From Tetradesmus obliquus (Eukaryota; Chlorophyta; Chlorophyceae; Sphaeropleales; Scenedesmaceae): DNA of 64,000 bases. The stretch lies in assembly GCA_030272155.1 (NCBI GenBank), contig CP126202.1, positions 3,121,501 through 3,185,500 on the forward strand, written 5' to 3'. Within the stretch, counting starts at the first letter, position 1. Every line of letters starts with the position of its first letter. The notes under the pieces are model-generated. The model was not told the origin of the DNA. It saw only the letters and a list, made by a program, of their open reading frames with translations, and made no database searches. The position numbers and the translations under genes were made by a program. This document shows positions 7,161 through 50,352 of the stretch, piece by piece.

Positions 7161-10100
7161 ATGAAGCTGAAGGAGCTTCATGCTCTTATGCAGGTAACCC
7201 AGGAAGGCAGCAGCAGCAGCACCAGCAGCAGCAGCAGTAGCAGCAGCAGTAGCAGCAGCAGCAGCGGCAGCAGCAACAGCAACAGCAGCAGCAGCAGCTG
7301 GTCCGACTAGCCGGCATAGCAACGTTACACGCAAACATAATTTCAACAACAGCACCTTCTGGCACATTTGCAGGACATTGAGCCGTTTGCGCAGCCCAAG
7401 GTGCAGCTGGAGCAGTACCCCACAGGCGCTGACATAGCCTCACGCATGCTGTACACTGTGAGTATGGGGCAGGAGCAGAGGCCTAGGCAGTTCGATGTAT
7501 TGGTGTTGAACCTTACATTGTTGTGGCAGCGGTTCAGAAAGGGCACAACTGACCGCAGGTGTTGGCAAGCTTGCAGCCAGCCAACTGCATCGCTGTGCAT
7601 GGCATTTGCACGGCTTGAGCAGTTCAGCAGTTTCACACGCAGTTCAATGTTGCATGCAACAGGCAGGAGCTGCAATTGTAATCTTGTGCCTCAGCAGCAG
7701 CTGTGCTGTGCTGTGTGTCGTGCAAGCAGTAGGCGTATAGGAAGAGAATGGCTGCACTGCAAGCAGCTTTGCAGTACCAAAGGATTGCAGCAATGGCAGC
7801 AGCGCCAGACGAACGCCCTGCTAGCATCCATCCAATGCACGTGATGGCATTTGCACAGCCGCCTTTTAGTTCGCGCTAATCTGCGCTAAGCTTGCGCGCT
7901 GTGTTTGCCACTCGCCCTGCGTGACTTGCCTGCAGATAGAGTCCATGTTTAATGACATAGAGGGCAACATTGTGGTGGACCTGGGAACAGGCACGGTGAG
8001 CAGCAGGCAGGGAAGGAGTGCAGTGCCAGCGCAGCAGCACATGCGCAGAAGCAGCAAAGCAGCACTGCGGCAGCACAGCAGCACATGCGCAGAAGCAGCA
8101 AAGCAGCACTGCGGCAGCATAGCTGCGCAGGGGCAGCAACGCAGCGCAGCGGCAGTGCAGCAGCGCAGTCGTATGTGACCTGTTGAACGTCCAGCAGGGA
8201 GCAGTTTTGTGGGCTTTGCATCAGCTTGCTGTCAAGAATGCTTGGCAACGTGGGTGGAAAGGAGTCGGCGGTTTACTTTGTGGTGATGATACAATCCTGT
8301 GCAATCATAGTGCACACAGCGCAGCATGCCGGCAGCTGCTGCTGCGTCCTGCTGACTTTGCCAAAATATCTGCTGCGGGCCACACTTTCCAACCCGTGCA
8401 CCCCCTGTGTCCGCTTGCAACAACAGGGCATGCTGGCCATTGGTGCTGCACTGCTGGGCAGTCCCTGCATGGTTCCAAGTGCATACACTATGACATGCTG
8501 TAACAAGCACCAAATTTTGTGACGTAACTGTAACTGTCTGTTCAAGCTGTAACAGGGCATGCTGGCCACCGGTGCCGCGCTGCTGGGCAGCCCCTGCGTG
8601 GTTCAATGTTCAGAATCTACGACATGCTGTAACAGGCTTTGACATGCTGCAACATTATCTTTGCAAATTGCGACAGGGCATGCTGGCCATTGGTGCCGCA
8701 CTGCTGGGCAGCCCCTGCGTGGTGGGGCTGGACGTGGACGCTGATGCACTACAGGTGGCACAGGACAACTGCGAGCAGTTTGAGGACCCGCTACCGGTGA
8801 GCTATGATCAGCTGCGCATGAGTGTAGGGTTCTGGGTGGCCAATGTCACATGTTTTGGGGGTTTAAGTGATCTGGGTGTTCTGGTGCAGCTTCAGGCGCG
8901 AAATTTCTTAATAGTGTGCCATGTGAGAACAAGATGGCTGGGGGAGGTCTGACATGAGCTGGGCAGCCCTGCGTGGTGGGGCTGGATGTGGACGCTGACG
9001 CGCTGCAGGTGGCGCAGGACAACTGGGAGCAGTTCGAGGACCCGCTACCAGTGAGCAGCAACAGCAATTGCTTGTTGACTGATATTTAGGTGCAGTGGCA
9101 ACCTTTGCAAATCGGGGTGTGGTGTGGATGTACCCGTCACCTGTGACTGCATCAGCATCAAGGGTGGCGCCCTGCAACAGCAGCATGTGCAAGCAGGCAC
9201 AGCAACTGCAGCTTAATCACCGCTTGATTGCATTCAACAAGTCAAAGCTGCTGGCACAAACCTGCTGCAACTTGCAGTGCTTGGTGCGCTGCATGCAAAT
9301 TCTATGTGGCACCGCTACCTGGCTCCTGGGCTGCAGCAAGCGCTGCAAATCAATGTGCCACAGTTCACACCCAGCCTGCCGTGCACCTGCTACCCTGCCT
9401 GCCCCACTCTCTCCCTCCACCCTGCAGATAGACTTTGTGCTGTGTGATGTCAACCAGCTACAGCAGCAGCAGCGGCTGCAGGCAGACACTGTGATAATGA
9501 ACCCGCCCTTTGGCACCAAGATGAAGGGCGCTGACATGGCTTTCCTGCGAGCAGCATGCAGCTTAGGGCCCAAGCAGATCTACTCACTCAATAAGAGCTC
9601 AACGCGCAGCCACATACAGAAGGTCGCCCTCAAGTGAGAGGGGCAGAAAGATACATGAATTGTGTCAATTCGGGCAAGCTGTGCTGCATTGCTGCTGTAT
9701 CAAAGTTTTGCGCCGTGCCCAAATCACTCAACTGCCTCTTGCGGCCAATTTTGATGTGCTGCATCTGTTCTTTGCTGCATCTGTTCTGCTGCAGGCAGCT
9801 GGTCTGTGCTGTGCTGCATTGCAGCTGCATGCAAGTTTAAGCAGCGTCCGCAAAGCACCGTACTGCCCACTGGCGTTGATTTTGCATGTGCTGCATTTGT
9901 TGCTGTGCTGCAGGGAGCTGGGCTGCAGCTCTGCTGAGGTGCTGGCTGAGCTACGCTACAACCTGCCAGCAACCATGAGGTTCCACAAGTGAGTGCGCTG
10001 CCTGCAGCTGTGTACAACAGGCGTGTATGAACACCTGTGATTTGTAGTGACAGCAGCCAGGAGTGTGTGAGTGCCTGTTGGCAGCTACTGATCTGTATAG

Positions 10101-10254
10101 TCAAGCGCCTGCTGCAGCATTGACGTGGTTGGTGACTGAGCCATGACAAGCAAGCCATTGCACACTGAACGTCAGTTGTTTGCGCTGCTGCTGCTGCTGC
10201 TGCCGCAGGCAGGCTAGTGTAGACATAGAGGTAGACCTATGGCGGTTTGAGCTG

Positions 10255-10286
<32 letters not shown>

Positions 10287-11141: not shown

Positions 11142-13933
11142 CTACAGCTCCGCTTCGCCCCTGACTCCTCCAAAGCTCTTCAGCTTGTCCTTCAGGAAGC
11201 TGCTGGCCTTGCCCACAGCAGCAGCAGCAGCGTCCTTGGCTTGCGCAACAGCATCACCCACCACCTCCCCCGCCTTGGCCATAGTCTCCACAACAGTACC
11301 GGCAACGCTGCCGGCTGCTGCTGGTTTGTCTCCGGGCACCTCTGTCATGGGTGTGGAGTGGATCTCGCCATCATCCGCTTGCTGCTGCAGCCCCTGCATC
11401 TGCTGCATCAGGTCCTCCCTGCATGCCATGCAGCGCGTTACAATTGACAGACGAAGTTTACGGTGCTTGGGGTGTGTTCAACAAAAGACGGCCAGCAGGC
11501 GGCTAGCTTGAGGCGCGCAGGATGGCAATCAGCAGCCAGGTGGGTCAGAGCATCTTGCGCTGCATGGCTGTAATCACGTCTTGCTCGCATGCATGCGCGC
11601 GTCAAGACAGTTGCCGATCAAGAAAAGCCTGCAACAAAGTAAACTAAACTCAAAATGACGGAACACCAGCAGCCGCACCTATTGTACATCTGCCCTCCCA
11701 GCCCCGCCGCCTTCATGCGAGCCATCATCGCCTCTCGCTCCGCCTCGCCAGCAGACATGGGCATGTGGGCAGGCCCTGGCGCGCGGTCCTGCAAGGCACA
11801 ACAACACAGCAGGGATACATGTTGGCACTACATACGATGCACCTGCGGAGAGTGGGCTGCTTCATCAGCAAACATGGGCACGTGCGCAAGGCCGGGCGCG
11901 CGGTCCTGCAGGCCACAAGGCAACAATCCATAATCATGTTGATGCACAACTCACAGACATAACGACACTGCAGGGTGAGGTCCGCGGTCCTGCATGCTGC
12001 AACAGCAGCGGCCAAGCATGGCGCATTGTACGGCAGCAGCGAGGGCTTGAGAAAACTGGCATGGCGGCTGCATGGTTGCTGTGATAGTAACCACAAAATT
12101 GGCAACATGGAGTGTAGACACAGTGTGGTTTTGTGTCTCCTTTGTGTGAAGGCGATGACCGAGCGATTGCTGCCTATGTTGAGTTGAACAGACAACACTG
12201 GTGGCAATTTGCACAGCTGCTGGCAGGCAGCAGCGGGCGGCTCACCTTTGGTACGGGTGGCGGCTTTACGCGGCACACATTGCTCATCTCGTAGCAGGCC
12301 AGCTATGAGTTCACAACGCCGTCGAATCCATGAACAGCAGCTAAGAAGCAGCAGCAGCAGCAGCAGCAGCACCAAGCAACTCACCTTCGGCACGGGTGGT
12401 GGCTTCACGCGGCACACATTGCTCATCTCGTAGCAGGCCAGCTGTGAGTTCACAACGCCGTCGAATCCATGAACAGCAGCTAAGAAGCAGCAGCAGCACC
12501 AAGCGACTCACCTTGGGCACGGGTGGTGGCTTCACGCGGCACACATTGCTCATCTCGTAGCAGGCCAGCTGGGTGAGGGCGCTGCGGCTCTTGCCGCTGT
12601 ACAGCGCCTCAGAGAGGTCCGACAGGTCCAGGGCATCGGTCACCTACAGAGCAATGATCAGCAATGATCAGCTACACAATGCCAATGCGCCTGTACAGCT
12701 GGCCGCAGATGCGCAATAATTGGTGTGTTACGCTGATGCTGCTGGCGCATCTCAACAGCGCACACAGCTGCAACTCCTGCTCTGCAACAATGCTGCCGCT
12801 GACAGCAGTACAGCATGCTGGCTGCCCACCTGGCTGCAGGCACGTGCAATCGTGGCGCACTCCGTGTTGCATTTGCTGGCCTGCAAGAAAGCAGCAGAAA
12901 TCAGCTATGTGTCAGCATATGTACAACCTGTTTGCAGTACTACTTCTGTCTTAGTTGCAGTCACCATGCGCTGCTGCCTTCGTTCTAGGTGGTGCCTTGC
13001 TGCCACAACTCCCTTGCTGGGCCCCTGGCCTGGTGTGTTTATGCAGCCCACTTTGCAGCATGAAGGTATGCAAGTGCCAGCATGTGTTGAGTAGGTGAGG
13101 TCTGTAGCAGTACCCGCGTGAATTGGCGGCACTGATTTGAATCTGTCACAGGGGTTAGCAGGTTGCATTGTGTATCTTCTATCCATCTCAGGGCTGAAGG
13201 CTATGTCGCACACCTGCTGCTTGTCCACAAACTTCATTTGCCACCGTCCTCCAACATGTCGTAGTGGCTGATACAGCAGGATCAACCTTAGCACTAAGCA
13301 CATCATGTACTTACGCTTACACGGACCCGCGCACCTGCTTTGTGTCCACCAGCTTTATCCTGCCGCCGTCCTCCACCATGTCATAATGGCTGATACAGCA
13401 GGATTAACTTTAGCACCATGCATATCATGTACTTATGCGTACCAGAACCCGCGCACCTGCTGTGTGTCCACCAGTTTTATCCTGTCTCCATCTTCGACCA
13501 TGTCGTAGTGCGTGATCCAGCCGCCGTCAGGCTTGGCGGGGTTGCAGGCCAGCTCCAGGTTCTCAATGATGGCAGACTCATCCACCTGGCACAGCAAGAC
13601 GATAACAGGAAGCAAAAAACACTTCAAGACCACACCGATGCATTGGCGGCATTCAGGGGACACAGTATGTAAAAAGAAGGCCTGGTCTGAGCTTGCTTTG
13701 GTGTCGGTCTACTATGTACTTGCAGCAGGTTCAGACTGCAGCTTCTGGGTTTAAAAGCATCTGCTGCTGGTGGTGTTGACGCATCTGCTGCTGCTGGGGT
13801 TCTGCATCTGCAGGTGCTGGGGTCTACGCATCGAATGCTGAGCCTCACCAGCTGCCCCGGCTTGAGCTTGCTGCTGTGTGGTTCTACCAAGTGCCTGCAG
13901 CAGGCTCAAACTGCGGCTGCTGGGGTCTATGCA

Positions 13934-13966
<33 letters not shown>

Positions 13967-14673
13967 ACTGCTGTGTTTCACGCATCTGCTGCTGCTGCTG
14001 CTGCTGTTGTGTTTCACGCATCTGCTGCTGCTGGGGTCACCGCAACTGGCTGCTGGCCCTCACCCGCTGCCCCGGCTTCAGCTCGCCCCGCAGCGCCTTG
14101 ACCTTGCGCGTTGCCTGCTTCACCAGCGCCTCACACACACCACACTTGATGAACTTGACGTCTGCAGCAGCAGCAGCAGCAGTAGCAGCAGCAGTGTTGC
14201 TGACTTATAGGTGCCCTGATTACCTGCATGTCCTGTTACAGCGGTGTATGTGCGGTTCCTGTCCTGCGGGATAGGCTGCACATTTGAAATGTGTACCCTG
14301 TTTAAGTGCAAGGGATTTGTTGCTTACCGCTGATTGCCTAGCAGGCAGGACAAAGTGCATAGTGTGTGCCTTGCAACTGTACTGCACAGCAGACAGCGCA
14401 GCCTGCTGCCTCACCTGACACTACTGCTGCTGCCTTTGGCTGCTCAGGCATGCCGCCCATTCCCATGCCCGGCATCATGCCAGCGGCATGCGAGCAGAGC
14501 TGCAGCACTATGCTGCACGCCAGCAGCAAGAATGCTGGGTGTCTGACGAAAAGCAGCACAAGCAGGGGCAGCAGCACACCATGGGTTACTGGGTGATGCC
14601 TGCTAGGGCGTCTTGCCGCCGGATTATGTGATTGACATTGATTGATAGCAAGACGCGGAACATACCTCTGCAT
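11142..14673 (-). CDS. Secreted saposin-B/CNPY-like cysteine protein with helical tail (310 aa)
   Basis: Eight exons (14673-14666, 14542-14415, 14161-14064, 13585-13457, 12880-12830, 12643-12512, 11788-11679, 11418-11142) join in frame. The first exon is only 8 nt. With exon 2 it encodes a classical signal peptide, MQRHPAFLLLACSIVL then QLCSHAAG. The mature part has saposin-like cysteine spacing: IKCGVCEALV, ENLELACNP, KCNTECATIARAC, and LACYEMSNVC. A PPPVPKDRAPG segment follows, then MYNREDLMQQM. The C-terminus is a ~70-residue alanine/lysine amphipathic region (AKDAAAAAVGKASSFLKDKL). Such saposin-fold secretory proteins bind lipids or act in ER folding. Which applies here is unknown. Exons 3, 4, 6 and 7 each have decayed duplicate edges in adjacent introns. 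Family assignment is from cysteine pattern and recall only. Confidence 0.7.
11850..11992 (-). repeat. Echo copies of the 5' edge of saposin-like exon 7
   Basis: On the minus strand the acceptor plus GACCGCGCGCC of exon 7 (start 11788) recurs at about 11906 with a degraded continuation, still encoding an AHVPMFADEA-like stretch. A shorter remnant, GCAGGACCGCGGACC, lies near 11990. Confidence 0.8.
12240..12575 (-). repeat. Threefold copy of the 3' edge of saposin-like exon 6
   Basis: The segment for LACYEMSNVCRVKPPPVPK plus its GTGAG donor occurs at 12575-12512 (true), about 12450-12386 and about 12310-12246. Flanking intron sequence with a CAGCAGCTAAGAAGCAG block is copied too. Units are about 128-138 bp apart and more than 90 percent alike by eye. 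Confidence 0.92.
13195..13515 (-). repeat. Threefold copy of the 3' edge of saposin-like exon 4
   Basis: The segment encoding HYDMVEDGDRIKLVDTQQ and its donor is present in the true exon (ending 13457) and again ending near 13336 and 13216. Spacing is close to 120 bp. Divergence increases with distance from the true exon. A separate degraded copy of the exon 3 edge (LKPGQ plus GTGAGG) is near 13849-13870. Confidence 0.9.
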
Positions 14674-15799: not shown

Positions 15800-15965
15800 A
15801 GCTCACAGCTCCGTGTTGCCTGCCGGCTGCCCACTGTGCTGTCGCGCGGCAACAGCCAGCACCAATACCAACTCACAGCCGCCAGCTCCGCTGTCGTCAG
15901 CTGCTGCTGCAGAAGCACCAAAAGCCAGCTGACAGCTCCGCCTTGCCTGCGCGCTTCTTCACTCC
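15800..15965 (-). repeat. Degraded copies of the C-terminal coding end of the small secreted gene
   Basis: The plus-strand text CACAGCTCGGTCTTGCCTGC at the end of the true gene recurs with changes at 15931-15965 (GACAGCTCCGCCTTGCCTGC) and about 15804-15840 (CACAGCTCCGTGTTGCCTGC). These lie downstream of the stop codon, in the presumed 3' UTR or flank. The remaining 14674-15800 holds no gene I can support. Confidence 0.7.
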
Positions 15966-16004
15966 ATCATGCTGCAAGCAGCAGCAGCTTCGCCACAGCA
16001 CTGC

Positions 16005-17093
16005 TCACAGCTCGGTCTTGCCTGCGGGCTTCTTCACGCCCAGCTTGTCCAGGGTGCTGGCCAGCAGCTCCTGGGCCTGGCCCAGGTACTCCGTGGCCAG
16101 CTCCTGAGCCTGCGCAACATACACTGCGGCAGCAGCAGCAGCAGCAGAAGAAGAAGAATGCGGTGGTGAGAGGATAGGAATGGCACGCGCGAACAGTTGA
16201 GGTGCGGCGGATGTGTTGCAGTACAGCAGCACACGGCTGTGAGCAGGTCAGGGACACAGCATGCTCTGTGCAGCACACAGCAGAGTTCTCCAGGTAGTGC
16301 GGCCGCCACACTACCGAGCCTGGCCTTGAGTTGAGCAATGCAGTCTGCATTGGCTAGCAGTGGTGCAGAGTGAAGGCAAAAGCAGACCTCCTGTGCACAG
16401 TTCCTCCCCGTAATTTGCTCAAAGAAGCAGTGGAACAGGGCATGCCCAGCTAACCAGTTATGTGCGCAGCAGCCGCGGCAGGCAGCACAGCAACCAACCT
16501 GTTGCGGTCTCAGTGGCCTTGTTCAGGTACTCAGTGGCCAGCTCCTTGTAAGCATCCATTGAGCCTGCTGCAGCAGCAGGAGTGGGTGTCGCTGCTGCTG
16601 GTGTGGGGGTTGCCGCAGGGATGGGCTCCGCTGCTGCTTCAGCTGCCTCTGCAGCTGCCTCAGGCTTGGAGCTAAAGTGCATGACTGTTGGCTCCTCGTC
16701 GTCCTGGCAGCGAACCACTGCAGAAGTCGCCAGCAGGGCTACCACGGCCAGCAGCATCAAGTACCTGCAGCGGTGGGCAGGAAACCAACAGCAGCAACGC
16801 CGGGTACCACGGTTAGTGCACAGCAGGGCGCCCAGCTGCACCATAATCGTCTGAAGTTGGAGGATCAAGCAAAACAAGGTGGGCGTTTGCCGCAGGCTGC
16901 AGCACGCGCTGATCTAGAGTGTTGTTGCCCGCCTGGAGTGATGTGTCCTCAACTGGGTAGCAAAGTAGCAGCATGAACGGACAGTGCATCCGCTCCTTCT
17001 ACGACCACTTTCACACGCATGCTGTTGTACCAGGAGCTTTGGGTCAGGCGAAGCAGGCAGTTGGTGCTGCCAACACACTCACTTGCGTGCCAT
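16005..17093 (-). CDS. Small secreted alanine-rich helical protein (131 aa)
   Basis: Three exons (17093-17083, 16764-16499, 16123-16005) join in frame. The first exon is 11 nt (ATGGCACGCAA). Joined to exon 2 it gives the signal peptide MARKYLMLLAVVALLATS followed by AVVRCQDDEEP. The mature protein has a low-complexity A/P/T spacer (PAATPTPAAA) and then amphipathic helical segments sharing an ELATEYL motif: KELATEYLNKATETA from exon 2 and QELATEYLGQAQELL from exon 3. It ends KPAGKTEL. The repeated helix resembles lipid-surface or LEA-type helices, but no family is recognised. The gene diverges from ZOP1 across 624 bp. Confidence 0.62.
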
Positions 17094-17717: not shown

Positions 17718-18352
17718 ATGACGGAGGTAAGACCCAGACAGTGCTTCCCAGCTGGCATTACAGCAGCACATATCAACGCTGCTGTGTAGCGTAGGCGCCT
17801 GGACAGGCAGCCTACATCCATACTTGTCGCAAGCAGTACATGCACTGCTGCTTTCACAGGAGGCCTGCTTACACCCTTCCTGCAAGCACGTCCATGCTCA
17901 CCAGCTGCTGCATGTGTGCTGCATTGCCTGCCCTTCGTACAGCGATGGAAGTCCAACCCCATGTACTGGTGCGAGCTGTGCCGCGTATGGATGAACGACA
18001 GCAAAGCGGCAAAGTTCAACCACGAGCAAGGCGTGAAGCACAAGGAGAACCTGGCTCGCAGTGAGTGACAAGAACAGCAGCAGCAGCTGCAGCAGCAGCA
18101 CCTCCAGCCGTGATGAGACAGCAGCAGCAGGTGGTGTTCCCTTTTGCATGTGTACAGCCTGCAGGCAACCCAAGAGCAGCTGCATGCCAGCCCCACTGGC
18201 ATGCCAGCAGCAGTCACTGTCGCACGTTCAGCGGCAGTAGCAGCAGCAGCAGCAGCGGTAGCAACGGCAAGCAGCTGGCTGAACATACACAGCCTAGCTG
18301 GCTCGTGTGCTTGCTGCCTTGCAGTTCCATGCCTGCTGAGTTTCGAGTCACC

Positions 18353-18415
<63 letters not shown>

Positions 18416-19657
18416 ACCTGCACCTGCAGAGCTGCGGGACATGTCCAAGAAAGCGGATGCAGAGAAGCAGCAGGAGGAGCATGCGATAGCGGCCATGGAC
18501 AGCATCGAGGCAAAGGCGCGCAAGCAGTACGAGGCAGACCAGGCAGCAGCGCAGGCGCAGGCGGGCAAGTGGGTGTGGCATGAAGGCAGCGGCTACTACT
18601 ACAATGCAGCACACAGGTGAGCCTGGCTGTGCAGCCCTTGGTCCAAGACCTTTGTGAAACACACAGCACAGCACCCTTGCAGGGTAGACGCAGCGGGCTT
18701 GAACCTTTCCGGGAGCCAAAACAGCTGCTGCTCGTCAAGCAGTGCTGCATGCAGCAATTGCACTTGACGATTTTCTGCTGAACACACAGTGCACAGCTTG
18801 TGAGCTGTGTTGTTGGTGCGCCTAGTGGCTGCGTGCTTGCTGACCACTTTTACGTCGCTGCCTGCTGCCGCTGTTGCTGCTGCTGCAGATGGTACTTTGA
18901 TGTCAAAACAAGCTACTATTACGGTGGGGAGCCAGTAGCCTGGACACAGCAGCCAGGCATCCCCTCAGCAGCAATGTTTGGCGTAGCACCATTTGAGGGC
19001 GGTGACGCAGCAGCGCAGGCTGCAGCAAAGGCAGCAGCCGCAGCAGCAGGAAGCAAAGCAGGCGGCGGTGCTGCAGCCAGCAGCAAGCCAGCAGCAGCGG
19101 GTGCAGCAGCAAATGGCCAGGGTGTGCGGGTAGTAAAAAAGGTGGTGCAGCTGCCGAGCCATCCGCTGTCGGGTGTTGGAGGGCATGCCATGCCTGTGTC
19201 TGGGCGCATTGGAGGCGCAAAAGGGGTCGGCATTGCTGACCCAGCAGCAGCGGCAGCAGCAGATGCTCAGAAGGTGACCGCTGCAGCAAAGTTTTGGAGT
19301 CACCAAAATGCTGTGCCATGCGCTGTGCTGTGGATGCACAGCAGACTGTGGCACTGCGTCAGTCGATAACGTGTTTCTGTAGGGTGCAGCCAATACAAAC
19401 AGCCTGGCACCCCACTGCCAGCAACCGACTACCGATCATTCGCTGCTGTCAACGGCTGCTGATGAGTCTGTGCTGTACGGCTGCCTGTTGCTGCGCTGCA
19501 GAGAAAACGAGAAGGTTCTTCGTCAGCAGCAGCAGCAGCAGCAGGCAAGGGCGTCAAGAAGCCGCTGGACCCTGCAGAGGCAGAGGCATTGGCGCGCAGG
19601 GAGGCGGCACGGCAGCGAGTAGAAGCACGCACCAAGACTGCGTTCGGGCTGACGTGA
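17718..19657 (+). CDS. ZOP1: ZOP1/WBP4-like splicing factor: U1-type zinc finger plus OCRE domain (284 aa)
   Basis: Exons 17718-17726, 17943-18060, 18430-18616, 18889-19273 and 19502-19657 join in frame. Residues 4-40 form a U1-type C2H2 finger (YWCELCRVWMNDS, then FNHEQGVKHKENL), the first domain of WBP4/FBP21 and plant ZOP1. A charged helix follows (LRDMSKKADAEKQQEEHA). Next is an aromatic OCRE-like motif: KWVWHEGSGYYYN from exon 3 continues into WYFDVKTSYYYGG in exon 4. The C-terminal basic helix EALARREAARQRVEARTK also fits ZOP1. Plant ZOP1 acts in pre-mRNA splicing and RNA-directed DNA methylation. The splicing role is the safer inference here. The alanine/glycine spacer in exon 4 is lineage-specific. 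The first exon is only 9 nt (Met-Thr-Glu). Confidence 0.9.
18356..18416 (+). repeat. Sense-CTG tract before ZOP1 exon 3 acceptor
   Basis: About 19 perfect CTG units end 14 bases before the acceptor at 18429, in the place of a polypyrimidine tract. Confidence 0.9.
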
Positions 19658-20221: not shown

Positions 20222-23200
20222 ATGAAGATTTCCTTAGTCATGCTTCTGCTGGGTTTAGCAGGCATAGGTGGGTGCGCGTCCACGCGAGTCTGGCGCCATC
20301 ATGGATTGCGCGGCAAACGATGCTGTGCGTGCCGACTGGCGCATGCTGGCGCCGCACGTACTTGACTTGCTAACGTCGAGATTTTATTGCTGCAGGTACA
20401 TATGCACAAGACCCGCAGCCCTTGCTGCATCCTCAGCCTGCATGGTCCGGAGTGCTCACCAGCAGTAGCAGCAGCAGCAGGTTGCGCCTTGCCAGCACGC
20501 AGCAAAGCTCACCTGGCAACAACCCTCTGCTGGCACCCAACTGGCAGCTAAAGCTGGGCCAGTTGCCCCTGTGGGACAAGATCAGGCCAGAACACATCCA
20601 GCCTGCAGTTGCAACACTGATTGAGGAGGAATCAGCGTCCCTGGATTTCCTGGAGCAGGATCTGCTTGCAGGAAACGGCGCCGTCAGCTTTGACCGGATC
20701 TTCAAGCCGTTGACTCAGATTCAGCTGCGCACTGACTTTGTCAGCGGGCAGTTCAGCCACCTCTCGGTGAGTGATTGGTGCTGCTGCTTGTTGGACTGCA
20801 GCAATGTGCTGGTACAACCCAGCAGCTGATGTCACGCTGTTGTTGCCACGCAGCTGTCGTTGACACAGTATGGATTTTCTGTTCAACATGCATCCGCGTC
20901 ACCTGGCCTGCCTCACCCTGCCACCTTACCCTGCCGGTGTCTGGCCGCATTCTTCTGTACACAGGATGTCATGAGCACCGACGCGCTGCGTGCAGCTGTT
21001 GAAGCTGTCACCCCTGCCCTAGTCAGCTTCAGACTGCGGCTGGGCCAAAGCAAGCCAATCCACAACGCGCTAAACACCCTCAAGTCTAGCTCAGACATCT
21101 GGCAGCAGCTGTCACCAGAGCAGCAGCGGCTAGTGTCCAAGACGCTGACAGAAATGGCTGGAAACGGGGTGGGGCTGGAGGCTGACAAGAAGGCAGCATT
21201 CAATGAAGTCAAGAACAAGCTGGAGCAGCTGCAGAACCAGTTCTCAAATAATGTGCTGGATGCAAAAGGGGTGAGTGATGTGAGGCTGTGCACAGTTTGT
21301 TTGACAGGCTGCTGCTGGCTTGCTTGTAGGGTGGCTCCCTGTTGCCTGCCCTGATCAGAGTCGCAGGCAGCAGACATGCTGTTGTGACGGTGTCTGCCTG
21401 GCACCAAAGATGCGGACTGCTGTTGAAAACCGTGTAAGGCTGTGCTCTGGAATGAGGCTTGTCTAGGCTACCTACACAGCTCTTGCAGCCGATTCAAGTC
21501 AACGCCAGCAGCAGCGCCAACAACATCCACGCACGCTGCCCCTTACCAACAGCTGCCATGCTGCAACCCTGACAACCTGTTTGCACGCAGGCCTTCAAGC
21601 TGCTCATTACAGAGCAGGCTGATGTGGTAGGCCTGGCAACCAACACCCACCCTTGCCATTGCACCCTAAACCCTTTCTTACAGCTGCCGCGCTGCCACCA
21701 CAACAACTTCATTGTATGCAGGCCTTCAAGCTGCTGATTGAGGACCAGGCTGATGTGGCAGGCCTGGCAGCCACCACACTCGCCCTGGCAGCTCAAAATG
21801 CGCTGGCAGATGGCCACACCACTGCCACAGTAGCAGACGGCCCTTGGCTCCTGAAGCTTGATGGCAACACATACTCGGCAGTCATGAGCTCCGCACACAA
21901 CAGGGAGCTGCGCCACAGGATGTATGTTGCGGAGAAGACGGCTGCGTCGGCTGGGCAATACGACAACAGTGGCCTTGTGCGGGACATTCTGAAGCTGCGG
22001 CAGCAGCTGGCAGGGCTGCTGGGGTACAACAGCTGGGGCGAGTACAGAGCTACCAGCAAGGTGAGCGGTGCTTCACACCCTTGCAGATGTTGAAACACGC
22101 CTGTTGTTAGTTGGTTATGCAGTGGCTCAGACTGCGTTGGTTTGTTGCACTGTGGATCTGGACCTGTCTAGACTGACATATGTCGCAGGTGCAGTTTTTG
22201 CAATTCCATGTGTATGTTAAGCCGGCAGATGGTGAGCTTGACCAGGCAATTGGTGCCATACAGCCAGCCAATAAACTGGCATTTGACAGCTTCAGCTGTT
22301 GAACATGCATTTGTAACATGTTACTAACACTTTTTAAACCCCCCCTGCAGATGGCCAGCATTGACCAGGCCGTTGACCTCATGCAGCAGATGGTGTCTGC
22401 TAGCCAGCCGGCAGCAGCACGGGAGCACGAGCAGCTGGCAGCCTTTGCGCGGCAGCATTCAGGGGATCCTCAGCTGCGGCTGCAGTGGTGGGACGTGGAG
22501 TATTATTCGGAGCGGCAAAAGGAGGCATTGTTCAACCTGAACCAGCAGGAGCTGCAGCAGTATCTGCCGCTGGACAGCGTGCTGAAGGGCCTCTTTGACG
22601 TGAGTGGTTCTGGTGTTTGCCAGAGGAATCGAAGCAACATCCTGCAGTGTGTGCCACCATGCATGGGTAGATAACAAGTTGCAGGATGTTCTTTCGATCC
22701 GCAGAAGTACAGAGTTGCTGGGTTGCAGCTGTCAGGCTGTGGTTGCTGTGCAAGTAACCAACAGCAGCTGATGCGGAGTCTGCATTTGCTCACATTGGTT
22801 GCAACCTGTTGCTTTTGTATGTGCGTCTGCAGCTGGCGCAGAAGGCGTATGGCATCAGCATCGTCAAGGCTGTGCATGACGGCGACAACACGCCCCACGT
22901 GTGGCACAAGGACGTCACACTATACCAGGTGGGTTAGCTGACTGTATGTTGTGCGTGCTGCCACTGTTCTCGATAATCACTCGTGATGTATGAAGCAATC
23001 GCAGGGCCGGTGGCTTCCATATGGCATGATCGCTGACATCAAGATGATGTGACACTGTTATCTGCTGCACCAGGTGCACAACCAGGGCACGCAGCAGCCC
23101 ATTGCCTACTTCTGGACCGACCTGTATGCACGGCCAGGCAGCAAGTCAGGTGCGTGGCAGCATGTCCCAGCACAGAGGTGCTGGGTTGCTGTGCTTGGCG

Positions 23201-23929
23201 TTGCATCAAGCACGCAGTGCTCAAAACCCAGCAAATGGTGCTCTGATGGCTCGGCCAGCTGGGGGTCAATATCAAAACATGCAGTTACAGAGTGGCTGTA
23301 GCTAAAAGATGGCATGGCTACTGGCACCACGCTGGGTGAAGCTGTCTGGTGACTGTTTGACACGTGTTAACAAGTGTACACGCAGCTGCGTGCCTGCAGC
23401 CTTGCAGGAGGCGCCTGGGGGAACGACATCGTGTCAGGCGTCATCCTGTCTACCAACTGTAACGCATGTACACATGTCTGTCTGTGTGTTTGTCTGTCTT
23501 GCGGCAGGCGCCTGGAGAACGTCATCGTGACAGGCGCTGTCCTGGTGCCAAGCTATAACGCATGTACACCTGCCTGCCTGTGTGTCTGCCGCCCTGCAGG
23601 AGGCGCCTGGGAGAATGGCATCGTGTCAGGCGCCAAGCTGTGGCTCACCCCCAGCCCTGCCGCACTACGCGCACGGCAGCTGCCGGGCGGCAGTTCAAAC
23701 CCCGGCTTTTACACTCCCGAGCTCGCTGCAGCGCAAGCCGAGTGGCTGGACGCCGCGCCACAGCTGCTGCCGGCTGCCATTGTGGTGTGCAATCAGAGCC
23801 CGCCTGTGGCTGGAGGCCCCAGCTTGATGAACCTGAGGGAGGTTGAGACGCTGTTCCATGAGTTTGGGCATGCCAGCCAGGACATGCTGACTACTGTCAA
23901 GCTGGGGCTGGCTGCTGGCATCAGGTGGG

Positions 23930-23993
<64 letters not shown>

Positions 23994-25677: not shown

Positions 25678-28600
25678 ATGGTTTACAAAGCAGCACTATT
25701 AGTAGCTGCAGCAGCAGCTGCTGTGGCTGCACTCACCACGTTGCGCAGGGATACGACAGTGATGACAGCAGCAGTAGCACCACTGGTGCAGCTGCTCAAG
25801 CCTGCGTCAAACGCAGCGAACAGCCTAGCCAACAGCACTACTGCACCTCAAAGACAACGATGGGTGCAGCAGATATCCTGGGAGCCGCGCTCGTATCTAT
25901 TCCATGGGTTCTTATCAGACGAAGAGGTCGCACAGATAAAGACTGCTGCTGCCCCTTTCATGAAGCGCAGCACAGTTGTGGGTGATGCAAAGCAGCACAT
26001 CAACGTCGTGGATGAGTACCGCACAAGCTATGGCATGTTCATACGGAGGAACAACCCTTTGATCACTGGATTCATGAAACGGGTAGCGGAGTGGGCAAAG
26101 CTGCCAGTCAGGTGGGCACCCCGCAGCAGCAGGCCGACACACTTGCCGCTTGCCTTACGTTGGGTAACGCCCGCACACCAGCAGCTGCACGCGCTAATGA
26201 GCGCAGTTACAAGTTGCGAGTCCTACGCTTCGGAGGCAGGCAAGCCTGCTTGAGCCTATGCTCTTCCGTGCGTAAAAATGAGCGCAGCATATCGGACCAC
26301 ACACAGCAGCATCAGTCCTAGCAGCACCAGTGGCAGCAGCAACCACGTGCGCCAGATCCCCTGTGTTGAGCCATGCTTCACTGATTCGCTCTGCTCTGGT
26401 TATGCATCACTTCCTTCCTGCAAAATTGTATGCCTGCTCGCCTGCAGCCACTTTGAGGGCATGCATACACCACAATTAAAAACTAATGCTTTTGCTCCTC
26501 TGACGTTTTTTGCACCACCTGCCTGCGTGCCTGCAATTTGCCTGCATGACTGTCTGCAGCCACTTTGAGGACATGCAGGTCCTGCGTTACGGGGCGGGCC
26601 AGCAGTACAGGCCACACCAGGTGCGGTGCAGCAGGTGCCAACCCCACAGCGCTCGCCCAAGCCCCAATAGCAGTGTACAGCAGTGCCAGACGTACACAGC
26701 GCTGTCATAGTCATCAGAGAAGTTGTACCTTTGAAATAGCTTGACAAGCTGTGTGTGAGATGGCACAGCGTCATTTGGCTGCCAGGCTGTCAGAACATGC
26801 CGCAGCTCGGAGAAACAACAGTTGCAGTAGTTGCAGCTGTTTCACAGCTTCAAAACCCATCCAAACAGCTCACCCGCCGTGGGGCTTGCACCACATTCCT
26901 TTGTGCCAATCTCAGCTTGTCAAAAATCTGTCCTTTTGTGCACCGCGCCTGCAATGCTGCACTGCAGGACTCGATCCTTGACGAGGTGCAGCAGCCGCAT
27001 GGGCCCCGCCTGGCCACTGTGCTGCTGTACCTGAACGATGTACCTGAGGGAGGGGAGACGGCTTTCCCTGACACAGGTGTGTACTGCACAGCAGCAGCAG
27101 CAGCAGCAGCAACAGCTGCGGCGGCCAGCAGCCGCCGCCAGATGCAGCTGACGCGTATTGCTCTGGCCATGTGTGGGGTCCAAGGCCATATATGCAGCAG
27201 GTGTGGGCTCCCTCGGCTGATGTGAGCACTGCCGCGTGCATGCCAGCCAGGCTGCGTGGTCAACTGCTTGCTGGTTTCCTGGCAGGCTGCTGCAGAATGA
27301 CACATGTAACACTTTCCTGTGCACAGGGGCGCCTGTTGCATAGATGCTGTTCAGCGCTGTTCAGGAACAGAACTTGCCAGCAGGCGGCACAGTTACCATC
27401 AGACAACCCCTACCCCACACCCCCCCTATCCTGTCCTGCAAAACCCGACATTTGAATGTATGCAGATGCCAGCAAGTGGGCTTCGCCAGAGGTGGGAGCG
27501 CAGGTCGACCCCACGCTCTCAGAATGTGCCAAGGGATCTGTCGCCTACAGGCCCCAAAAAGGCGATGCATTCATGTTCTGGTCTTTCAAGCCAGATGGTG
27601 TGTCCATGGATCCCTTTGCACAGCACACGGGCTGCCCCCCAACCAAAGGAGTGAAGTGGGCGGCTCCTATGTGGATTCACTCGCGCCCTTTCAGGCCAGA
27701 CACTGCAAGTGAGTCGCGTCGCTTGCAGGACAGCTGCAGGATGCTAAATACCATTCTTTTGTGTATATGCAAGCTGTTTGCACCCTCTGACTACTGCCAC
27801 GTTGCATCCCCCCCCCCCCCCCCCCCCCCGCTTAACTGACACTCACTAAATGAACTGTGCAGCCGGAGCATCTGCTCTTATGCCGCCGTGCAGCTGCTCC
27901 GCATGAACCTGTGAGGCAGCCCATCCTGACATGTAATCCACGGGGTAGTATTACCAGCTCAACCCCTACGGCTGCCGCCGCTGCAGCTACTGCTGTGCTG
28001 CTTTTGTACCACCGTGTAGATGCGCCGCACGCCCCTGTTGGCATTCGCAGTTTGTCAATGCAGGTGCAGCTGTTCAACTCTCTTGTGTCTCCAATTTTGT
28101 GCTACTGTTCCGAAGTGTGGGGTCCAGCCCTGCTGAGCCAGGCGGGCTCGGGTGCTGCTTTGGTCAGCAAGTTGCAGAACAATGTCATCAGCAGGGTGCA
28201 GTTCACGTTTCTGCGTACACTTGCAGGACGCGTCCGCAAGTCCACTGCTCGCTTGCTTCTGTCAAGAGAATTTGGGGCCCAGCCTTTGGTCAGTTTGTGG
28301 CTTCGTGCGGCAGTGAGCATGTGGAATAGGGTTGTGGATATGGATGCGTCCTCCCTTTTGGTCTGTGCTATGCGTGACAACTTACGGCTGTCCACTGTTT
28401 CCAGCAGCGGCGCAGTGTGGTGCACACAGTTGCGACGTGTACTTGAATATGTGCATGCCCACTCACAGCAGCTGGGAGATGCCGTGCAAAGGCTGCAAAA
28501 CTTCCAGTCTCTGGATCTGAAAACCATAGCGCGTGCTTTTGATGGCGTCTTGTATCAGCAGTGGCAGGGGTGCCCTGTCAACCCGCGTGATGCTGCTAGT

Positions 28601-29330
28601 GGTCATGGTGTCTACAGTACTTATGAGCGGTGGTTTGCGGCATGCTCTTCTGCTGACATGCTGTCTGTGAGCCCAGCTTTATGGTGCCCAGATTATGTCT
28701 CTCAAACTGCTGGGATCAACAGAGAGCATCTGGGGTCCTTGACCCGTTTCCGTTTGGGTGCTCATGATTTACGTGTCTGCAGTGGCAGGTGGCAGCGACC
28801 ACCTGTGCCGCGAAGTGACAGGGTGTGCCTACGCCCTGGCTGCCAGTCTGAGGTTGTTGAGGATGAGTTTCATATGGTCTTTGAGTGCCCTTTCTATGCA
28901 CCAGTCCGCGAGCGATTTGCTATGTTGTTCGAACCCTTCGGGGACTCGTCACAAACATGGGCTACTATTGCTGGTTGTCACCCAGCAGGCGATGACATGA
29001 TCACTTTTATGAAGCAGGCACCTGCTTTGGTGGCCGCTTTTGTGCACTGCTGCTATCTGATGCGGTGTCACCCGGACACTGATCCTGAGGTCCTTCTGTC
29101 CTCTCAGGCTATTGCTCAAGCTATTGATGATGCTGATGAGTTTTTTTCTGCGTTGTCGTCTGACGGTTTGGACGATGATGAGTTGTTCTTCGATGTTTCC
29201 TCCCCCTATGAGCCTCTCGTTGGCTCCTGACTGGGGTTCCCACTCCTCGTTGAGTGGAGCATGTAATGTAATGTAATGTAATGTAATGTATGAAGCAGCC
29301 AATCCACGCGCTTTCTTGAAACCCTGCTGG

Positions 29331-29379
<49 letters not shown>

Positions 29380-29746
29380 CTGCTCGGTCTGTCGTGCAGA
29401 TGCGCCGCATGACCCTGTCGAGGCAGTCGACCCGGGCGTGTGTGAAGACGTCAACCCCCAATGCGAGCAGTGGGCAGCCAGCGGCGCATGCGAAACCAAT
29501 AAAGCCTACATGGCCGGCAATGTGGAGCACCACGGGCATTGCAGGAAAGCCTGCGGAGTGTGCAGCGTGTGCGAAACTGATGACAGAATATGCTACGAGG
29601 AGAACCGGCGCAAGCAGGGCTACTTGGTATACACTGAAGATGATGAGCTTGCTGTTGAGTTTGAGGAAGGCAGGCCTGTAGTGAGGGAAAAGCAGGCAGC
29701 GGGGCGGCAGGGCGGCTGCGCTGCAGCTGGCGCGGCATGCGCGTAG
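25678..29746 (+). CDS. Prolyl 4-hydroxylase with C-terminal ShK domain (397 aa)
   Basis: Exons 25678-26111, 26560-26620, 26968-27076, 27466-27708 and 29400-29746 join in frame. The N-terminus MVYKAALLVAAAAAAVAAL is a type II membrane anchor typical of ER/Golgi P4Hs. The 2-oxoglutarate/Fe(II) dioxygenase core has ISWEPRSYLFHGFLSDEE, VLRYGAGQQYRPHQD (the HxD iron ligands, split by intron 2), PRLATVLLYLNDVPEGGETA, then HTGCPPTKGVKW (distal His and the 2-oxoglutarate Lys). Exon 5 encodes a ShKT domain, VCEDVNPQCEQWAASGACE to CRKACGVC, common at the end of algal and nematode P4Hs, then an acidic tail. Such enzymes hydroxylate prolines of cell-wall and secreted glycoproteins. The last intron is 1.69 kb because of a LINE insertion. 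The gene starts 286 bp after the oligopeptidase stop. Confidence 0.94.
26441..26475 (+). repeat. Echo copy of P4H exon 2 start
   Basis: CTGCAGCCACTTTGAGGGCA at 26442-26461 repeats the acceptor and first codons of true exon 2 (CTGCAGCCACTTTGAGGACA, exon start 26560), 112 bp upstream. Confidence 0.85.
27808..27829 (+). repeat. Poly-C run in P4H intron 4
   Basis: An uninterrupted run of about 22 C lies between the exon 4 donor and the first echo of exon 5. Confidence 0.95.
27885..28045 (+). repeat. Two echo copies of P4H exon 5 start
   Basis: The true exon 5 junction (GTGCAG then ATGCGCCGCATGACCCTGTC at 29400) is echoed at 27894 (CTGCTCCGCATGAACCTGTG) and 28020 (ATGCGCCGCACGCCCCTGTT). The two echoes are 126 bp apart. 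Removing the ~1.25-kb LINE would place the true exon about 130 bp after the second echo, so the series was regular before the LINE arrived. Confidence 0.85.
28050..29290 (+). mobile_element. 5'-truncated non-LTR (LINE) retrotransposon, sense insertion in P4H intron 4
   Basis: An open frame of about 390 codons (to the TGA at 29228-29230) starts inside the reverse transcriptase C-terminal region: LFNSLVSPILCYCSEVWGP is the typical post-palm segment of LINE reverse transcriptases. It ends with a cysteine/histidine motif of the zf-RVT type (CLRPGCQSE, FHMVFECPFY) and an acidic tail. There is no 5' UTR, ORF1 or catalytic YADD part, so it is dead on arrival. The 3' end is a short UTR and then five to six ATGTA repeats (29261-29290). 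The 5' boundary is set from the end of the P4H echo and is uncertain by about 30 bp. No clear target-site duplication was found. Confidence 0.87.
29331..29377 (+). repeat. Sense-CTG tract before P4H exon 5 acceptor
   Basis: About 15 CTG units end some 22 bases before the acceptor at 29399. Confidence 0.9.
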
Positions 29747-34360: not shown

Positions 34361-34865
34361 GTCACGCTAGCGCCACCCAGCCAGTAAGCAAGAGAAAGAC
34401 AGCAAAAGGACAACTCGCTGCTGAAAGCAACCCCTGGTAGAGTCCATGCATGCCAAACTCAGCACACCGAGCAATCCGTAACCATCGCTCACACCACAAG
34501 CTGAAAGCAGCAGCCAAACCTTGCTGCAGCAGCAGCCGCAAAGCTCCCAGCACACCTGGCGGCACTGCTGCAGCATAGCACGCATCCAGCAAAGCACTCT
34601 GCAACACATCAGCCTGCACTCCTACACGCACGCAGCCGCCTGAGTAGTCTGACCCCGCCCGCTGCTCTGTAGCACCCACAAACCAAGGAACCATCCCACT
34701 CCCAGCCCCAAAGTCAAACAGCCTGCCTGCAAGCTGAAATGAGTAGCGCCACGAAACATCGCCAGTCATAGGCACAGCAACACAAGCTGACAACATGATG
34801 AGCAATCTGGAATCATCACCATTGCCTGCCATCACCTGCCAAAGCAGCAGCAGCAGCAGCAGCAG

Positions 34866-35010
34866 TGCCCTGGCACTGCGCTCAAGAGCCAGCCCATCAC
34901 AGCACCAGCCAGCCACACTTCCCAAAAAGCAGCAGCAGCAGCCGCAGCAGCAGTGCCCTCGCACTGCCCTCAAGAGCGAGCCCCACACAGCACCAGCCAG
35001 CCACACTTCC
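34866..35010 (-). repeat. Two-unit direct repeat just downstream of the PP2C stop
   Basis: CAGCACCAGCCAGCCACACT with its preceding CTCAAGAGC block occurs twice about 90 bp apart, separated by a CAGCAG-rich spacer. It lies in the presumed 3' UTR of the minus-strand phosphatase gene. Confidence 0.85.
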
Positions 35011-35033
35011 AATAAGGCCCAAAAGGTCCAAGG

Positions 35034-38000
35034 TTAGCTGCTGGACACCGGGGAGCTGCTGCTGTCCTCACCCAGCGAGGATGTGGTGGGGCTGCTGCTG
35101 GCGTGATGCTGGCCTGCCTTGTCGGCGGCAGCAGCAGCGGCAGCATTCGCGCGGGCCTTCCCAGCATCCTGCACCACCGCCACCACACACGTGATGTCGT
35201 CCATCTTCCCACCCTTCGCAAACAGCCGCGCAAGCAGGCCGAAAGCCTTGCCAGCCGCCACAGACCAGGGCGATCTGAACTCCTTGTCAGCGGCATGTGC
35301 GGCAGCAGCAGCAGCCAGCAGCTCGGCAGCCCTCGCCACATCAGACGGTGACACGTCAGCAGGCGTAGCTGGCTTCAGCGGCGCGGCAGCAGCAACACCA
35401 GCAGCCTCCGCAAACACATCGTCCTCTGCCAAGCTATAGCCGGCTGCAGCAGCCACGGCTGCAGCCTTGGCACCCTTGCTGCGGCCCCACGAGAGCTTCT
35501 TCGCTCCCCACGACGCAATATGACTCGTGCTGCGGCTGCGAGGCAGCACCCCACTGCCACCTTGCTGCTGCTGCTGCTCCTGCGCCGCATTCGCATTCGC
35601 ACTTGCCGCCGCCTGCACGCTGGCGCTGCTGCTGCTGCGCGTGAGCGCTGCAAAGCTGCGGCTGCGTGACAGCAGTTTCTTGCCGGCTGACCTGCCCAGG
35701 CTGTCCATACCAGTGAGGCTGCTGCTGCTGTCTAAGGGCGGGGGTGCCCCCAGCAGCCCCTGAGGCAGCAGCGCCAGCAGCTCCTCATCCCACAGGTTGT
35801 CAAAGAGGCCGTCAGATGCTGCCACGATGATGTCGCCCTCCTGCACGTCCCAGGTGTACCTGTGAGCAGCAGCAGGAGCAGCAGCGGCAGCAGCAGCAGC
35901 GACCACAAACAGAGTCGGGGACAGTTCCAAGGTTGTGACCTGAATGAATTTGCATGCCAATGAGCTAGCTATTAGACCGTCGGGCACGAACAGCTCCTGG
36001 GCCTGGCCCAGCTGGGACGCAGCCCTGAAGGCACACAGATGCAGGCATCCATCAATCCAAGCAGCTTGCAGCTTATTTCACCACACAAGCATGCCCAGCC
36101 GTACCTGTCAGCGCTGTCTGCGGTGTCTGTGTCGGGGAAGAGCCGCGGGTGGCTCAGCTGGTAGGGCAGGTTGAAGTCATGCTGCTGCGGCTGCGTCTCA
36201 TGCACAATCTTGCCGTCACGCACCACCTGCGGCAGCGGCAGCAGCAGCAGCGTCGCGTCAGCCAACCACTCACAAAATCACACGCGTCTCCCGCGCGTAC
36301 GCGCATGCTAGCACTGTACCAAACAGTGTTCTTTACAGCTTTCACCAACGTTGCTACAGAACCGTTCTGCAGCTGCAGCAACATCCCGAAGCACGCTCTC
36401 CTGCAGCCTCAGAGCTGCTCAGCAACTGCCACTGCAGCTGCAACAGCATCTCACCTTGATGCCGCAGTCCCCCAGCTTCGCAACGTGCAGCTTGCCCGCC
36501 ACTACATACGCATGCTGTCACTGTACAACAGCAAAACCCGCTTTCCTGCAGCCTTAAAGCTGCTCAGCAACTGCCATCTGGTCTCACCTTGATGCCGCAG
36601 TCGCCCAGGTTGGCCACGTGCAGCTTGCCCCCAGGCTGCATCGCCGCCAGCACCACCGTGGCACTTCCAGGCTTGCACGTGCACTGCTGCGCGTAGCGCA
36701 GCACCGCGCGCGGGTCAAATTTCGCGCAGAACGTGCCCTTGTTTGCTGCACGTGCAGCAGCCATGACTCGCTCCTCAAACGCTTCACAGCAGTACTGCAC
36801 GAGGGTGCGGGAGTACTCGCCGGGGTCGATGCCGTCCTCAGCCCATGCTGACACGCCGTCTGACACGCCCAGCGCGCCGTGGCCTGCTTGGCTGATGAAG
36901 AAGGCGTCCTCGCCGCCAGTGTGCGTCTGCAATGAACAGCGAGACAGCGCAGGTCAGTAGTCAGCCACTTGCGACAATGGCCATATGATCAGAATGCTCT
37001 GGTTTCATAATACGTAGTGCAATCAGGCAAATGCATGAGCAGCGCTGGTGGGGCGCACAGCGTGCCTGTTTAGCATCCGCCTGCACACTCCGACAACTGC
37101 CTGGTGCATTCAGCTGCAAAACACCAATTGTTATTAGCACAAGCCAAGCCAATTCTGCAGATGTACAACCTGAGCAAGCTACAGTCACAACTCTTCTCAC
37201 CTTGTCCACGTGTGGGATGATGTGGGCAGAGGCCACCAGCCGCAGCCCCTCCTGAGCCACAGGGGGCTCCAGCACATCATCATGGCCCCGCTGGTGTGAG
37301 GGCTTGGCTGCAGCCACAGCAGCAGCAGCATCTGCATTCGCAGCACTCAACCGCGCAGCTTCGACTGCCGCCTTGTCAGCGGGCGAGGGAACTGTCACTG
37401 TGAGCCCCAGGCACGGCAACTGGTCCTTTGTGAGGCTGCTGCTGGCGCTGCTGCTGCTGCTGAAGCTGCTGCCCCCGGTGACAAAGCCGCTGCTGCTGCT
37501 GATGTTGCTGCCGGGCAGGCTGGGTGCAGCGGCGGCTGCCTGGTCCTGCAGGGGAAGCACGTCATCGTCATCCTCCCCAACCGCAAACACATCGGCGTCA
37601 TCATCTGCTGCGGTTATGTCGTCAAGCAGCTCAAGCTGCGCTGCCTGCTGCTCTGCGGCTTCTTCCTCTGCGCCTGCTGGAGCAGCAAACCTCGCCAGAG
37701 CCATGGGAGGCAGAGTGTCCTCTTTTGGCAGCAGCGCTGAGGCATCCACATCTTCACCAAGCGCACAAATCTCCGCTGCAGCGCTGAGGATAGCATCCGC
37801 GCTGCTGTCCCTGAAGCCGCCGCGGCTGCTGTACGTGCCAGCTGCTGCTGCTGCAGCTGCCGCGGCAGCTGCGCCAAACACGCTGCTCTCCTGCTGCTGC
37901 TGTGCAGCAAGCACAGCCGGCTCGACAGCCATCAGCTGCTCAAAGGCCAGAGGGTCTTGCAGGACGCCTGCCTCTAGCAGCTGCTGCTCATCCACTGCTG

Positions 38001-50265: not shown

Positions 50266-50352
50266 ATGAGCAGCCAGTGCAGTCCGCTGCCACCTGCCGC
50301 TGTTGAATGGTGGTGCAGCTCACCCTCGGCGGCAAGTGATGCTGCACGCGTG

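Follow-up and report, generated by a model that had tools for sequence, protein, structure and literature searches.

In the potato RdRp gene (PMC4974935), one tandem duplication across an intron-exon boundary gave rise to a new spliced intron and altered the mRNA, and a second, intron-only duplication of 83 bp is present nearby. That source also cites the model of AGGT tandem duplication put forward by Rogers and the ATP2A2 test by Hellsten et al. Introners are described (PMC9860276) as dispersed copies of one element. Here, we describe tandem arrays in the green alga Tetradesmus obliquus in which an exon end and its splice site are repeated in the neighboring intron; these copies are termed echoes. 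As in the potato case, the duplication crosses an intron-exon boundary and the copy inherits the parental splice site. The arrays were studied in a 64,000-nucleotide stretch of contig CP126202.1 (positions 3,121,501 to 3,185,500; referred to as the window), which lies on contig C12 of a searched genome of 104.66 Mb in 17 contigs, and in other parts of this genome. The original prediction, made from the letters of the window, was that short segments spanning a junction are tandemly copied into the adjoining intron in five unrelated genes. This observation was confirmed and proved to be larger than first described, while its interpretation was supported in part; protein-level conservation of the copies is a new result, absent from that interpretation.

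Echoes of exon ends retain the protein code

Echoes were detected by self-comparison of the window followed by alignments, and gene models were generated by spliced alignment of a METTL5 protein (P0002) and two T. obliquus proteins (P0121 and P0131). Exon 4 of METTL5 (8677-8796, plus strand, from the P0002 alignment) is the parent of echoes on both sides. Two acceptor-side copies are located upstream, at 8427-8473, containing the first 47 nt of the exon with CAG in front, and at 8556-8602, while a donor-side copy at 8958-9050 contains the last 94 nt of the exon followed by GTGAGC. This donor-side echo differs from its parent by eight substitutions, all at third codon positions and with one residue changed, and by one 1-nt deletion, making it 1 base shorter than the exon in the window strain. 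Exon 5 of the saposin-B-type gene (12512-12643, minus strand, spliced alignment) has two donor-side echoes, one at 12385-12444 with a single, synonymous substitution and one at 12246-12304 with four substitutions in the aligned part, all synonymous. A PP2C-like gene on the minus strand has, by self-comparison, a single clear donor-side echo at 36394-36497 (parent, 36539-36630), with four exon-part substitutions, all at third positions and with one residue changed.

In five modelled genes, 38 copies were found in 21 arrays, and substitutions between exon and copy were distributed as 37/43/124 over codon positions 1/2/3. The pooled ratio of nonsynonymous to synonymous substitution (dN/dS) for the 21 arrays was 0.24 (0.15 to 0.36), where our arithmetic predicts approximately 0.5 for a free copy beside a constrained exon. 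As some third-position bias is already expected when the exon is constrained and the copy is free, a two-lineage simulation was utilized with equal mutation rates, almost no protein change allowed in the exon and no constraint on the copy. Taking one copy per array, 54 residue changes were observed against 77.7 expected for neutral copies, and none of 2,000 simulations gave so low a value. The deficit persisted without the two arrays first seen through codon periodicity (54 versus 70.9; P = 0.0005), without the ClpR-like gene described below (38 versus 50.0; P = 0.003) and for the window genes plus the PP2C-like gene (23 versus 30.2; P = 0.016). Donor-side arrays carried the signal (31 versus 50.1). 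Of twelve alternative mutation settings, two raised P to approximately 0.1 and the others gave P values of 0.035 or less. A "half" model, in which the constrained exon seemed to account for the whole pattern (74 changes versus 68.4), was dropped in favor of this simulation, since it assigns equal numbers of substitutions to exon and copy.

The exon part of the repeated unit diverged 0.28 times as much as the intron part (bootstrap, 0.20 to 0.38), the intron part having changed about 3.6-fold more and often to chance identity. The ratio was below 0.62, the value calculated for a free copy, in all 18 arrays, although the intron estimate is a rough one from 40-nt windows with gaps. Some arrays have intron parts that are still 90 to 100% identical (saposin exon 5 and ClpR exons 2 and 5). 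In the 18 arrays with at least two copies, the nearest copy had 0.062 residue changes per codon and the farthest 0.131 (P = 0.003). Mosaic variants were also present: of eight arrays examined, five had at least two informative sites and three of these five contained mosaics, all four combinations occurring at 8 of 14 informative site pairs.

An alternative is that these are ordinary neutral duplications in tandem, which persist because splicing removes them and which can still be recognized only if a constrained exon is one of the partners. Several copies do look fully neutral. Against this explanation, which is disfavored and which we regard as improbable, are the divergence ratio of 0.28 rather than 0.62 and the residue changes, which were fewer than the neutral-copy model gives for the window genes, for the genes other than ClpR and for the blind set described below.

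In the ClpR exon 4 array (L004, 805-1570), the exon and its copies differ as AGT versus TCC or TCT and as TCG versus AGC, with serine kept in each case. Such switches between serine codon families are a sign of long protein-level conservation.

A blind replicate in chaperonin genes

The chaperonin (PF00118) and proteasome families were picked before any match was seen. The ten chaperonin loci were the best-scoring matches rather than a random draw, and two of them (L032 and L033) are neighbors and probably one gene; the parent exon in each case was the profile match, so that exon edges are approximate. Twenty-six copies were detected in five of the ten loci, with substitutions distributed as 17/18/108 over the codon positions and a dN/dS of 0.21 (0.10 to 0.46). 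There were 36 residue changes in all copies against 78.4 expected, a value not reached in 1,000 simulations, and 24 against 36.8 with one copy per array (P = 0.001). For the proteasome family, no clear echo was observed among 40 profile matches in a profile search that is insensitive to short copies.

Comparisons between copies were made for five ungapped arrays, the gapped and out-of-register arrays (L026 acceptor side, L028 donor side and L033 donor side) being left out. The donor side of L026 has five copies of an exon end reading GGASPEVEVGYQLSKWSKTLR; in the ten pairs of copies all 35 differences were at third positions (0/0/35), with three residue differences. Third-position bias was also present on the acceptor side of L028 (2/4/23) and the donor side of L034 (0/0/3). 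The far acceptor-side copy of L026 looks decayed and has a frameshifting gap.

Such differences could also be allelic, if unequal recombination between haplotypes had put two functional exon ends side by side with no later selection. The synonymous divergence (proportion of synonymous differences [pS], 0.24) and the mean intron-part divergence (0.38) are similar in size, as this explanation predicts, and synonymous exon-part differences occur beside nearly identical intron parts (saposin exon 5 and ClpR exon 2). Strains of this species have diverged: the METTL5 proteins in other T. obliquus records share 98% identity with the query in the conserved part and 94 to 97% overall. Many diverged alleles per array would, however, be needed, L026 alone having five different versions, and at a strain-specific residue of METTL5 (Q or H) the exon and the echo agree within each strain, so that the echo matches the exon of its own strain. 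Capture of alleles is considered to be quite unlikely.

Exon ends are overrepresented in the arrays

If exon edges were no more often copied than other sequence, 60-mers at exon edges and within introns should have local copies at similar frequencies; in this comparison, named in the original prediction as one that could refute it, no excess at edges was observed (20/66 versus 129/365). This comparison is confounded because the echoes are themselves intronic and inflate the intron control, and array-level placement tests were, therefore, used as well. Arrays were collapsed to restore shorter introns and one unit was then placed at random. An exon end was contained in 17 of 18 array clusters of the five modelled genes, one of the 17 (GSH1 5176) being included for segments with separate matches to exon and intron. 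Random placement predicts 8.2, and 17 was not attained in any of 50,000 runs. In the three window genes, taken by themselves, the values were 7 of 8 versus 4.0 expected (P = 0.035, or 0.011 with stricter overlap), an array of mostly intron sequence at METTL5 exon 6 having been scored as intron-only. Among 37 arrays outside known genes, 17 had a coding-like splice edge, compared with 8.5 in random intervals (standard deviation, 2.9; highest of 30 draws, 15).

The neutral explanation draws support from the absence of an edge excess in the 60-mer comparison and from a simple scan for donor motifs, in which 39 arrays outside known genes had 9 strong donors where 8.7 were expected. The positions of acceptor copies upstream and donor copies downstream are likewise automatic, as any tandem duplication across a junction gives this geometry and no special machinery is needed. 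The edge content of the arrays, both in the modelled genes and outside known genes, is what this explanation does not predict. The preference for exon ends can be partly one of survival rather than of origin, since older intron-only arrays decay faster and may be missed.

A process acting at splice junctions had been proposed. Exon ends are indeed favored, but in two genes the echoes are also found beyond stop codons: the last coding segment of ClpR is copied with its stop codon beyond the ClpR stop (L004, 2440-2990; seven substitutions and no residue changes) and that of GSH1 is copied in the same way (L010, 5460-5590; four substitutions and two residue changes). As these are 2 of the 21 arrays, the common factor is the border of coding sequence. 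The proposal is, therefore, narrowed to frequent tandem duplication with recognizable surviving copies at coding borders.

Splice sites and the METTL5 insert

At the copied edge, 20 of 25 donor copies and 10 of 11 acceptor copies retained an intact splice dinucleotide (30/36). It is, thus, conceivable that the copies are translated, as cassette exons or as alternative exon ends through splicing of whole units, and are subject to ordinary purifying selection. Consistent with this, the 31-amino-acid in-frame insert LGSPCVVGLDVGADALQVAHDNCEQFEDPLP of P0001, another T. obliquus METTL5 model, is the counterpart of the donor-side echo at 8958-9050, while P0004 has the residue signature of P0001 without the insert; P0001 and P0004 may be either isoforms or the products of two loci. 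The low dN/dS values (five modelled genes and chaperonins) would also be expected. P0001 is, however, an annotation and not RNA evidence, and the insert was present in this protein only among nine aligned METTL5 sequences; no echo was present in any of eight saposin relatives. A normal-strength acceptor near the left end was detected for 0.20 of the donor-side copies compared with 0.30 of random intron positions, so there was no enrichment, and most donor-side copies lacked the two splice sites of a complete exon, the METTL5 and saposin exon 5 echoes being possible exceptions. Matching GT-AG pairs able to splice out whole units were found for 7 of 38 copies, in none of which were both sites of normal strength. 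Frameshifting gaps or stops in some copies are a further difficulty. As most donor-side copies have no normal acceptor, translation does not explain the copies in general, and proteins such as the chaperonins or ClpR would probably be harmed by repeated insertions. Overall, we consider translation unlikely.

The lack of acceptor enrichment ruled out the cassette exon as a general account of donor-side copies, and the scarcity of GT-AG pairs did the same for skipping of AGGT units. Of the outcomes envisaged in the original prediction, the creation of alternative exons thus has one annotated case in its favor, P0001, against the absence of acceptor enrichment, and the supply of new introns has only the GT-AG pairs of 7 of 38 copies, none with both sites at normal strength. 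Gene finders can splice echoes into proteins, as P0001 may illustrate, which is a practical warning for annotation.

Arrays are present on several contigs

Sampling covered five regions of 40 kb each from other chromosomes, plus 40 kb of sequence that flanks the window; a block of C7, which is mostly satellite, and the window's own satellite were excluded from array counts. There were 64 non-satellite arrays in approximately 254 kb, with a median closest spacing of 130 bp (quartiles, 112 to 152). Density was uneven, with 11, 7, 26 and 3 arrays per 40-kb block of C1, C3, C5 and C9, respectively. The expectation that the phenomenon is widespread in the genome was borne out by these counts and by the five positive loci among ten in the blind chaperonin set. 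Within the arrays, neighboring copies follow one another head to tail on one strand. One array was searched against the whole genome and had a single match, being unique to its locus.

A ClpR-like plastid gene on C1 (closest solved chain, 7eko_L) had arrays at 7 of 8 modelled junctions, and GSH1 on C5 (9ufc_A) had arrays at 5 of 12; ClpR was first spotted by codon periodicity and GSH1 by scanning an array-rich stretch, so these frequencies are not those of a random sample. Echoes were also seen, without a gene model, in a CBF/Mak21 gene on C5. By coordinates, no array overlapped PsaF on C3, a gene identified by a Pfam scan.

Tandem arrays were found on seven contigs (C1, C3, C5, C9, C12, C15 and C16), which argues against false expansion of collapsed repeats during assembly. 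The youngest arrays, with identical intron parts and exon parts that are 95 to 98% identical, could be so explained, but most copies are several substitutions apart, some with insertions or deletions, and the METTL5 echo is also found in another T. obliquus protein set. An assembly artifact is very improbable.

Spacing in the sampled regions outside C7 clusters at about 110 to 150 bp, which raises the question of a nucleosome or Okazaki fragment length. In the C7 block (L014-L017; C7:2500001-2540000), much of the 40 kb is a satellite with a period of 297 bp and variants at 83, 338 and 380 bp.

Gene models and other echoes of the window

P0002 was 100% identical to the METTL5 draft read from the window, and the assembled protein was identical over its full length to OEZ86_004795 of T. 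obliquus. The METTL5 model has seven exons, and its identity is also backed by a solved structure (6h2u). For the saposin-B-type gene, located on the minus strand, seven exons were found, the first of which is only partly modelled. The M3 oligopeptidase model has 11 exons and an identity supported by Pfam. All 22 introns of these three models are GT-AG. The PP2C-like and P4H-like labels are provisional, being based on Pfam matches just under the cut-offs and on the earlier naming.

At METTL5 exon 6 (start, 9914), the acceptor-side array, with a 130-bp spacing, occupies 9678-9912 on the plus strand. The remaining saposin echoes, all on the minus strand, are an acceptor-side copy at 11866-11905 of exon 6 (11679-11788, spliced alignment); donor-side copies at 13335-13399 and, with a 1-nt deletion, at 13214-13277 of exon 3 (13457-13585, spliced alignment); and a CTG-rich donor-side array at 13688-14086 of exon 2 (14064-14161), which was lost from the masked copy search. 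In the M3 gene, on the plus strand, exon 4 (21722-22060) has an acceptor-side echo at 21591-21656, and exon 8 (23600-23924) has two, at 23408-23449 and at 23506-23537, the latter with a 1-nt deletion and an AG scored as not intact. For the P4H-like exon starting at 26560 (plus strand), the acceptor-side echo at 26448-26465 is weak, with 18 of 24 nt matching at 112 bp upstream where the best of 500 shuffles gave 17 of 24. Of the five genes originally named, METTL5, saposin and M3 therefore have arrays and the PP2C-like gene has one echo, while P4H has only this weak copy. Closest spacings in the window were 97 to 175 bp, plus one of 255 bp, a wider range than the predicted 92 to 138 bp. That the copies exceed chance was upheld: the highest score among 144 shuffled flanks was 24, below the threshold of 40, and every copy in the five-gene search scored above a threshold from 60 shuffles of its own flank.

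The saposin and M3 genes are separated by a WBP4-like gene (17718-19618), which had no array in the array search and the shuffle-threshold test. At 15928-16040 (minus strand), there is a 38-bp pair with copies 75 bp apart, both of which look like coding-frame ends (PAGKTEL and RAGKAEL); this is perhaps another echo beyond a stop codon. An open frame of 458 amino acids at 27854-29230 (plus strand) resembles, by impression from its translation, the C-terminal part of a non-LTR (non-long-terminal-repeat) retrotransposon reverse transcriptase and had no Pfam match, and a short open reading frame with a ShK-like domain (PF01549) at 29294-29746 (plus strand) adjoins a short (ATGTA)n tract. Further arrays contain about eight units of 49 bp (50340-50721) and about three units of 178 bp (51318-51873). 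The end of the window (54360-64000) is filled by a large satellite with about 54 copies of a 179-bp unit and a higher-order period of 357 bp, and is possibly a centromeric or subtelomeric array.

A proposed recombination model for the conservation of silent copies

The reading that we tentatively prefer, with a probability of about 0.42 and from sequence comparisons, is that tandem duplication is frequent and that recombinational swapping with the functional exon end keeps the copies code-competent. Short tandem duplications, with the spacing quartiles of 112 to 152 bp, would arise again and again in the genome, and a duplication straddling the end of a coding segment would leave an exon end and splice site in an intron or 3' untranslated region. 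Such a copy would normally be spliced out or untranslated and, hence, silent; the tandem anatomy is observed, while we infer silence from canonical proteins that lack the echoes. The copy in use would then change repeatedly as the copies and the functional exon end undergo unequal crossing-over and gene conversion with each other. A copy with a damaged frame would be exposed, and purged, once recombination brought it into the gene: as the gene would break whenever array contraction fused a damaged copy to the exon, even rare exchange in a large population could select against damaged copies. The exon part and splice site would, thus, stay code-competent while the intron part drifts, and occasional copies might be spliced in as extra exons. 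By reasoning, a lowered dN/dS is not expected if gene conversion from one and the same parent is the only process.

Exposure through recombination fits better than translation because the exon part and the splice site are conserved together, conservation falls with distance from the exon, variants are mosaic and the METTL5 exon and echo share their strain-specific residue. Several observations weigh on the other side. Acceptor-side arrays alone fit neutrality (23 changes versus 27.5; P = 0.095), and P rose to approximately 0.1 with a parent mutating at 2 times the copy rate, G/C sites 3 to 5 times more mutable and a parent omega of 0.05. Copy-copy differences had no third-position bias on the donor side of L032 (5/7/5) or the acceptor side of L034 (3/3/3). 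The gradient from near to far copies and the low dN/dS would also be expected if near copies were younger or derived from diverged alleles, and mosaicism could be homoplasy. The stronger proposition, that silent exon-end copies are under protein-level purifying selection through recombination load and form a standing stock of spare exon ends across the genome, is doubtful at present.

If recombinational maintenance is correct, a coding signal is not proof of translation, local recombination is a force shaping introns, and the arrays are living intermediates for intron gain and alternative exons. PMC5966456 gives a mean intron length of 462 bp for T. obliquus and 230 to 302 bp for four other green algae; the long introns of T. 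obliquus would fit growth by echo arrays and may also have other causes.

Comparison with known systems

In a literature search largely without subscription papers, no report was found of genome-wide exon-end arrays or of intronic exon-end copies conserved at the protein level. The arrays resemble introners (PMC9860276) in being a large-scale change of intron content, but introners are described as dispersed, whereas the one array searched had one genome match; in the first 54 kb of the window, no repeat at least 2 kb apart and with over 60 bits was listed. As in tandem exon duplication and mutually exclusive exons (PMC9013439), exon sequence is repeated in a neighboring intron, is sometimes unannotated and also occurs in untranslated regions. 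Those duplications involve whole exons, whereas the T. obliquus copies are partial, each with 27 to 108 nt from a single exon end (in the chaperonins, up to 164 nt). Most donor-side echoes have no further splice site of normal strength, so that they do not form complete exons that could replace one another. The AGGT model of Rogers and the ATP2A2 test by Hellsten et al. similarly involve tandem duplication near a splice-like site, but GT and AG that match at the same position of two copies are not general in T. obliquus (7/38). The potato RdRp duplication was a single event, whereas T. obliquus has many arrays in several genes, mostly silent and located on both sides of exons and beyond stop codons, with copies that exhibit protein-level conservation.

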